Assembly (NCBI RefSeq): GCF_024228315.1
Contig: NZ_CP100454.1
Span: forward strand, 3,348,001-3,412,000
Length of the DNA stretch: 64,000 nt
From: Halomarina pelagica
Lineage (GTDB): Archaea > Halobacteriota > Halobacteria > Halobacteriales > Haloarculaceae
Reading direction: 5' to 3'
Numbering within the stretch: the first letter of the stretch is position 1; the number at the start of each line of letters is the position of its first letter. Below, piece by piece: positions 4,960-58,756 of the stretch. Position numbers and translations under genes: made by a program. The notes beneath the pieces were generated by a model. It searched no databases. It was not told the DNA's origin and worked only from the letters and a program-made list of their open reading frames with translations.

Positions 4960-5474
4960 GCGACCCCCGCCAGGGGTCGCGGGGCGTGGCGTCGAGCACC
5001 CGCGAGTGAGCGCCGCAGGCGCGAACGAGCGGACCGACGTTCACGAGAGTGAAACGCTCGTGAGCCAACCGGAACGCGCCGCGTTCCGGTGACGACCCCC
5101 CGAGGAGCGCCGGAGGTGCGACGAGGGGGTGAGGAGGGTTTGCTCCAGCTTTTGCCAGCGAACGAGGCGCGCAGCGCCGAGTGAGCGTGGTCCGAGAGAC
5201 GCCAGAGGCGTCTCTCGTCATCTCGGAGCAGCGAAGCTGCTCCGACGACTCGTCGGAAGACCGGAGGTCTTCCGAGATCTCGCAGGAGCGAAGTTCCTGC
5301 GGACTCGTCGAAGTGCCTCCGGCACTTCGAGATCTCGAAAGGCGCGAAGCGCCTTTCGGCGTTCACGAGAGCTTCGCTCTCGTGCCGTGTGGAAGATGCA
5401 ACGCGTCTTCCATGCCCACAAGAACGACTTCGTCGTTCTTGGGACAGCCCATCAGAACCGCGAAGCGGTTCTGA
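4960..5474. repeat. Tandem array of unrelated short hairpins with three-base loops
   Basis: Ten consecutive palindromes occupy 5193-5474, at 5193-5217, 5223-5245, 5253-5275, 5281-5301, 5308-5330, 5336-5358, 5364-5384, 5390-5412, 5419-5441 and 5452-5474. Each has a 9-11 bp stem and a loop of exactly 3 nt (AGA, GAA, GGA, GAA, TCC, GAA, TTC, AAC, TTC, GAA). Spacers are 5-10 nt and the period is about 28 bp. Stem sequences differ from unit to unit. Looser members precede them at 5010-5022, 5043-5063, 5069-5091, 5107-5119 and 5166-5178, with a 5-nt-loop hairpin at 4960. Two stems hold one G-T wobble. No convincing gene lies here. Confidence 0.85.
5134..5161 (+). repeat. Gene-end repeat core, copy 1
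   Basis: A 28-nt block beginning GAGGGTTTGCTCCAGC and ending CCAGCGA recurs almost exactly in inverse orientation at 58427-58455. It sits inside the hairpin-rich region and has no coding role that I can see. Confidence 0.6.
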
Positions 5475-5526
5475 GGACGACAGCAAAACGTGGGCGTGCA
5501 GACGACGTCGGCACCGCGACCGCTCC

Positions 5527-5602
5527 GCGGGGCGTGACGTCGCACAACCGCTCGCGCCCCGCGGCGACTCTCAGGTCACGGGGGAGCCTGATCCCGTTCT
5601 CG
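5527..5602 (+). repeat. Dispersed 75-bp repeat, copy 1
   Basis: The block carries GGGGCGTGACGTCGCACAAC, then a GC-rich stem, then TCTCAGGTCACGGGGG and ATCCCGTTCTC. A closely similar copy lies on the opposite strand at 58592-58670. It borders the probable IS200/IS605-type remnant on its right, so it may be part of an old transposon end (inference). Confidence 0.6.
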
Positions 5603-5618
5603 GTTATGTGGTTGCAGG

Positions 5619-5990
5619 CGAGAAACCCCCGCCCTTGAGGGCGGGGATGAATCGCCGTCTTTGGTCGTAACCGGCGAAATCGAAAGGCTTGAGTGCCCAT
5701 ACTGCGCGTCTGTGAGTGTCGTTGCGACGGCCCCCCGTCGTAACTGACCGTTCGAAAACTGGCAGTTGACTTGGTGTTTGCCTCATCAAAAGGTAAGCCT
5801 TCGAACAACACACCGACACAAAACAACCAGATACCTCCGAGTCGCCGTGTCCGTCTTGGACACCCGATAGGAGTAACGGGGGCGTGGCACTCCCCCCGGC
5901 ACGTCGGGCCGGAAACCCGAGGTTCCCAAACCAGCGCACTGCGGTGCGGGCGTGGGAAGCCCCGCCGGTTACCGCGGGGAGGATGTCACA
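5619..5990 (+). mobile_element. Probable non-autonomous IS200/IS605-type remnant (no tnpA or tnpB)
   Basis: The stretch begins with a hairpin at 5627-5646 (arms CCCCGCCC/GGGCGGGG, loop TTGA) followed by GATGAATC. It ends with a second hairpin at 5960-5979 (arms CCCCGC/GCGGGG) followed by AGGATGTCAC. Such subterminal hairpins, with GGGAAGCCCCGCC before and GGATGTCAC after, are what I know from the right ends of haloarchaeal TnpB-type elements. No transposase reading frame is present between them, so this would be a deletion derivative (a MITE/PATE-like element). The exact ends are not determined. Confidence 0.45.
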
Positions 5991-58455: not shown

Positions 58456-58591
58456 GTCGCTCCCGCCGGAGTGCTCACGTCGTTCGCACTCCGCTAGTCG
58501 CTCCTCGGTCCGCTCGCTCGTTTCACTCGCTCGCGGGTACTGCGCTGGTGCCGTCGGTGGTACTCCGGCCTTCCGTCCCGTACCTTTACAT

Positions 58592-58670
58592 CGGAGAACG
58601 GGACCAGAGCCCCCCGTGACCTGAGAATCGTCGCGGGGCGCGCTGCGGTTGTGCGACGCCACGCCCCGCG
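58592..58670 (-). repeat. Dispersed 75-bp repeat, copy 2
   Basis: This is the inverse copy of the block at 5527-5602: GAGAACGGGACC, CCCCGTGACCTGAGA and GGTTGTGCGACGCC are recognisable on the plus strand. No gene is in the 369 nt from 58388 to 58756. Confidence 0.6.
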
Positions 58671-58756
58671 AGCAGCGCGCGGCGTCGCCTGTTCGCCAGG
58701 GCGTTTACCGCGCCCGTCGCGCGTCGAGCCGGAGGCTTGCGGCCGGTCAGTGCCCG

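Follow-up and report, generated by a model that had tools for sequence, protein, structure and literature searches.

The row of hairpins at positions 5188–5480 of the window (the whole 64,000-nucleotide stretch of the Halomarina pelagica chromosome analysed here, G000:C1:3348001-3412000) very probably consists of five two-hairpin mobile elements which, as we read the sequence, lie nested within or abutting one another. The repeating unit is a dispersed hairpin pair of about 54–60 bp, here called a dyad, with two hairpins of 8–11 bp stem and 3-nt loop separated by a short fixed spacer. A first-pass annotation of this DNA had described a run of unrelated stems with a shared shape. The shared shape stands; the stems are not unrelated, since for most of them the genome contains near-identical copies at other sites, and they belong to mobile elements made of two hairpins, which have relatives by sequence in almost all Halobacteria.

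Hairpin units and probable nested dyads in the array

Ten hairpins follow one another at 5193–5474, all with 3-nt loops, as had been claimed:

5193–5217: unit A hairpin, loop AGA
5223–5245: unit B hairpin, loop GAA
5253–5275: unit C hairpin, loop GGA
5281–5301: unit D hairpin, loop GAA, one G.T pair in the arms
5308–5330: unit E hairpin, loop TCC
5336–5358: unit F hairpin, loop GAA
5364–5384: unit G hairpin, loop TTC
5390–5412: unit H hairpin, loop AAC, one mismatch in the arms
5419–5441: unit I hairpin, loop TTC
5452–5474: unit J hairpin, loop GAA

The arms are perfect over 9–11 bp in eight of the ten (D and H being the exceptions), and the units start 26–33 bp apart, with a mean of about 29. 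Random sequence does not give similar runs: in 2000 dinucleotide shuffles of 5193–5474, no shuffle contained more than one perfect hairpin with a 3-nt loop and arms of at least 9 bp, compared with eight observed. Twenty 20-kb stretches of the same genome (400 kb) held 19 such hairpins in all, and the biggest cluster of short-loop hairpins in this sample had three members. Folded as single-stranded DNA, the array has a z-score of −11.3. Chance or GC composition as the source of the array is ruled out by the shuffles, the genome sample and a control across the phylum.

Several other identities were rejected. Open reading frames across the array match no Pfam family, which argues against a coding region, the alternative that the first pass had raised against its own proposal. 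A halovirus origin was dismissed on the absence of any blastn match among 50,697 phage records, and a known RNA family on the absence of an Rfam covariance-model match; the Rfam search of the window returned only tRNAs, and dyad-bearing loci gave no credible match. The array also lacks the identical repeats and differing spacers of a CRISPR array, since its stems differ and its spacers partly repeat, so that the contrast initially drawn with CRISPR was well founded. The extension of the hairpin run to 4960–5190 did not hold: that segment comprises a separate two-hairpin element (5040–5094) and ordinary conserved flank, of which 4960–4980 is also present in the relative H. halobia PSR21 (G004).

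The proposed parse, together with the separate upstream dyad and the Y element that hosts the array, is as follows:

5036–5039, plus strand: target tetranucleotide GACG of the alpha dyad, assigned from sequence by a rule drawn from 94 copies
5040–5094, plus strand: alpha dyad, separate from the array, TTCACGAGAGT-gaa-ACGCTCGTGA-gcca-ACCGGAACGC-gcc-GCGTTCCGGTGACG
5188–5480, plus strand: whole hairpin array, at the usual beta site of the Y element, GAGCG^CAGCAAAA
5188–5222, plus strand: putative left half of the outer beta dyad, the unit A hairpin (5193–5217) followed by TCATC
5223–5279, plus strand: putative delta dyad 1 (B and C), 3′ of TCATC and ending in GATC
5280–5334, plus strand: candidate delta dyad 2 (D and E), read as lying 3′ of GATC and ending in GATC
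5335–5361, plus strand: putative right half of the outer beta dyad, the unit F hairpin (5336–5358) followed by GGCG
5362–5479, plus strand: putative gamma element, in which an alpha-like dyad (G and J) encloses H-I, 3′ of GGCG and ending in GACG
5387–5446, plus strand: candidate inner dyad H-I in the G..J spacer, by comparison with L102, where G..J lacks H-I
5477–5607, minus strand: 5′ portion of the host Y element, conserved and structured, with a promoter-like TATA end (DNA match, E 3.1e-19)
58585–58697, plus strand: another Y element of the window, lacking a hairpin array

The site of the whole array is supported by paralogous Y elements, three of which are empty (L290, L313 and L316, reading GAGCG^CAGTAAACGG or CGACCG^CAGCAAAACG) and two filled (L328 and L101). 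At the equivalent spot between two convergent genes in G004 there is a Y element without the array, with flanks too diverged to give an exact empty site. The left half of the outer beta matches covariance model R2 at G000:C1:3353187-3353247 and has copies at L082, L086, L098 and L106. Delta dyad 1 is present in L082 and L098 and missing from L106, a simple beta; delta dyad 2 is missing from L082 and L098, where C leads directly to F. The last base of the outer beta would be 5480, and L106 ends in ...CGGCGACAG at the point matching its right half. Gamma has copies at L081, L083 and L084 and a simple two-hairpin form at L102. The separate alpha dyad scores 76.3 bits with covariance model R1 (these models are home-made, and their E-values are rough) and has close copies at L081, L153, L169 and L173.

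Used as a query against its own genome, the array recovered partial copies at C1:3142918-3143149, 748759-748872, 112613-112737, 485024-485120, 575217-575318 and 318133-318165, which keep the stems and the unit order A to J and drop some units. Stepwise states are represented: a simple beta of the A-F type (L106), A-B-C-F (L098 and L082), G..J alone (L102) and G-H-I-J (L081). We infer the nested order from these paralogue comparisons, which support the outer steps well and delta 2 and H-I less so; that these deepest steps are based on few comparisons is a point against the dyad explanation.

Insertion sites and distribution of dyads

Alpha, the best-studied dyad type, has the consensus TTCACGAGAGC-nnn-GCTCTCGTGA-gcca-ACCAGAACGC-nnn-GCGTTCTGGTGACG, with stems of 9–10 bp and a spacer that is gCCA in many copies and cgca or gccc in others. 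Its left flank is NNCG in 92 of 94 copies (GGCG in 39, GACG in 38), and its own 3′ end is GACG, likewise in 92 of 94. Because the left and right four-mers often differ (GGCG vs. GACG), alpha has no target duplication. Judged by these flanks, alpha is an element that inserts 3′ of a short target and itself ends in the same letters. A miniature inverted-repeat element would have terminal inverted repeats matching a transposon and a target duplication, in contrast to the left flanks GGCG, TGCG or GTCG and the right end GACG seen here. Hairpin tips were considered as preferred alpha targets and rejected, as they did not differ from control positions (p = 0.42). Beta reads (C/G)CG^TGGTT-hairpin-TCATCA-hairpin-..CGA, with boundaries taken from the Y paralogues, and delta would have ATC as its target and GATC as its own end. 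A further hairpin pair at L239 (compared with L241), TCGCCGGCGGC..., ends in GCTGG with the apparent target GG, and this different target suggests that there may be more dyad types.

Sites in IS6 transposase genes and in a UspA gene occur both with and without a dyad, which indicates, at the level of sequence comparison, that dyads move. At the first IS6 site, three species (L116, L132 and L138) are empty and read GCGACG^CCCGTCAGGG or a near variant, beginning GCGACG^CCC; the site is occupied by a single dyad in L102, by a different one in L139, and by a tandem of three in L113 (Haloferax mediterranei pHME132). The gene has a second site of this kind, where L116, L132, L138 and L139 carry an insertion and L102 and L113 do not. 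In the UspA gene of Halomarina sp. BCD28 (G001), the protein reads PTD-VHESEALVSQPEPSRSGD-GSDP, an in-frame insert of 18 amino acids with GACG on both sides; ten UspA homologues read PTDGS or PTDDS, without the insert. This in-frame copy means that dyads can lengthen proteins without breaking them. A gene of the MCP chemotaxis-transducer type (L135) is interrupted at CGTC, between VV and ADEVKSLAEE.

Some further features of these genes were noted. Dyads occupy the same two positions of the IS6-type gene across five genera, and L139 (6252–6531) has them at both. Several of the dyad-hit IS6-type genes, in the set L113, L116, L132, L138, L139 and L102, are broken by frame shifts or stops. The UspA dyad lies at L105 1495–1552, where it corresponds to the 18 added amino acids.

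The alpha model R1 matched 182 of 194 Halobacteria genomes (64/65 genera) and the beta model R2 matched 173 (61/65 genera); at most 28 candidates per genome were scored in this search, so that copy numbers are minima. In a sample of the phylum, alpha was found in 16 of 19 Halobacteria genomes and in none of 101 genomes from outside that class. Halomarina genomes have 2–41 alpha-model matches each, some of them one copy read on both strands. Related pairs are carried by plasmids of Haloferax, Natribaculum, Salinigranum, Halobellus, Haloterrigena, Natrinema and Halocatena, and occur in 23 named-genome stretches as well. Twenty alpha copies in Halorubrum G068 have almost identical stems and very variable loops.

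Stem covariation, loop inversion and host elements

The proposal that shape is kept beyond sequence is borne out by covariation. Each of the 19 stem pairs covaries across 113 distinct alpha-model matches (307 cells; 0/500 shuffles), and 97% of cells are paired in an alignment that was fitted to the model and so leans towards it (slid controls gave 29–51%). Of 184 alpha hairpins, 173 have a loop of exactly 3 nt, with GAA/TTC, GGA/TCC, AAA/TTT and AGA/TCT as the favoured loop sequences. Seven units are shared between the window and L081, and the loops of four are exactly inverted (B, F, G and J), those of the other three being identical (A, H and I).

Template switching between the arms of inverted repeats homogenises the arms and inverts the spacers (PMC8604942, PMC8794818), and a process of this kind may keep dyad stems perfect and flip their loops. 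Inverting loops and perfect stems are thus a known signature at inverted repeats (PMC8604942, PMC8794818), which could be taken to mean that each palindrome was made in place by repeated template switching, 3 nt being the smallest possible loop. We regard this as very improbable: it does not account for stems that recur at unlinked positions and in further genera, for the fixed unit of two hairpins or for the common GACG boundaries, and the empty and filled sites weigh against it. Of the origins first suggested for the run, repeated palindrome-making would give way to nested insertion and survive only as a secondary process, in the form of template switching.

The host Y element (the two window copies and loci L081 and L289–L328) is dispersed and structured, with at least 41 copies on this chromosome and 39 in G004; it has a TATA-like end and shows compensatory and G-U changes. 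Its model matches 69 of 145 Halobacteria genomes, no counterpart was found in Rfam, and Y is possibly an unrecognised multi-copy RNA family. In the window copy, a 382-bp IS605/PATE-like insert (about 5608–5989) lies exactly in the TATA-like box, which is intact in G004, and the start of Y reads CACATA in place of TTTATA because the insert splits the box. A second repeated stem-loop, X, of about 400 bp and at least 20 copies, occurs in Halorubrum G068 (L239–L258); alpha, beta and other hairpin pairs occupy constant positions in it, and some copies have empty sites.

One alternative is that the hairpins form a variable tip on a functional non-coding RNA and are kept for RNA shape. In its favour, the array sits in the Y loop (TTTTGC...GCAAAA), and Y is a structured family of 40 copies in which compensatory changes and numerous G-U pairs occur. 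Such a role is improbable, however, as these dyads are not confined to Y (they are also found in genes for IS6 transposase, UspA and MCP, on plasmids and in tnpB) and most Y copies have no dyads. Moreover, mismatches in alpha stems are G.T in 16 cases and A.C in 11, about equal numbers, so that an RNA-type wobble bias is not seen. A separate point bears against the dyad explanation, which we still prefer: numerous copies are located within the repeated Y or X elements and may have been multiplied along with them.

Proposed mobilisation and relation to known repeats

In the mechanism we propose, a dyad would insert directly 3′ of a short target, NNCG for alpha and ATC for delta, and would itself end in that sequence (GACG and GATC, respectively). 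Its 3′ end would recreate the target, allowing later dyads to land beside or inside earlier ones, and the run of ten hairpins would have grown by successive landings of this kind. Transposition may proceed via single-stranded DNA, catalysed in trans by a host enzyme of the HUH-like or another type; a single-strand mechanism is our best guess because the insertion rule resembles those of IS200/IS605 and REP systems.

Y1_Tnp is found in 133 of 194 Halobacteria genomes and in only two of eight Halomarina genomes, being missing from five or more. At least 49 of the 194 carry alpha without Y1_Tnp, which counts against the explanation offered here. The same figure weakens TnpA, the Y1 transposase, as a general mover, and makes it unlikely that dyads are minimal, PATE-like derivatives of the IS200/IS605 family mobilised by it in trans. 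Such an origin would fit the subterminal hairpins, the duplication-free insertion 3′ of a fixed short sequence and the frequent position of dyads in or near IS605-type elements. On the other hand, the ends of the Halomarina tnpA loci viewed are different hairpins, and the dyad at L144 sits inside an IS end, not as the IS end. Two bases separate the target from the first alpha hairpin, a gap that would probably leave no room for an IS608-type guide sequence. Our proposal for the dyads as a whole is a tentative one, to which we give slightly less than an even chance: they would form a class-wide archaeal family of two-hairpin elements of about 55 bases, mobilised by an as yet unrecognised enzyme with specificity for hairpin shape and the terminal tetranucleotide, with nested arrays built through the self-recreated target.

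The kinds closest to the dyads are the CGTC-tagged REPs of bacteria and the SMR/PATE elements of Haloquadratum. CGTC-tagged REPs have a CGTC/GACG tag at one end, 8–9 bp stems, loops of 4–5 nt and often a CCA tail; they frequently form dimers and rarely clusters, have copies in genes and no known transposase, and no haloarchaeon is named in the 2013 survey (Di Nocera et al. 2013, PMC3733652). Alpha shares the tag, with 92 of 94 copies ending in GACG, and its 9–10 bp stems are comparable, if slightly longer than those published. The gCCA spacer of many copies may recall the CCA tail, others having cgca or gccc. Alpha differs in its loops (3 nt in 173 of 184, not 4–5), and haloarchaea have in addition a second class with other tags (beta and delta). 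The dyads resemble GTAG REPs and the REPINs associated with RAYT in their paired hairpins, short tag and many dispersed copies, and beta starts (G)TGGTT; unlike these, alpha has no GTAG, and genes of the Y1/RAYT type are missing from the carriers noted above.

SMR-A, described from the single species Haloquadratum walsbyi, is about 110 bp long with prominent terminal inverted repeats (PMC3119063). Like the dyads it is haloarchaeal, lacks a transposase and a target duplication, strongly prefers other mobile elements and has no known mobiliser (PMC3119063); dyads are shorter, at 54–60 bp, in a comparison made with SMR-A by description only. With IS200/IS605 elements and PATEs the dyads share hairpins near the ends and insertion 3′ of a short target without duplication; they differ in being almost nothing other than two hairpins, in probably having no space for a guide sequence, and in that carriers without TnpA are common. 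We found no haloarchaeon in the table of a 2025 survey of archaeal REPs (PMC12306157). We found no description of these dyads in the open-licence literature.

Few repeats in bacteria are as abundant as the REP-like palindromes, and we know of no mover for the CGTC type, one of the two REP superfamilies. The dyads appear to be a sister kind to the CGTC REPs, found in almost every Halobacteria genome sampled; they follow a simple insertion rule, and there are recent, near-identical copies. They interrupt genes, as seen for IS6 transposases, MCP and UspA, and they explain part of the perfect hairpins found in haloarchaeal intergenic regions. With the good genetics available in Halobacteria, the question of what moves transposase-less REPs becomes directly testable.
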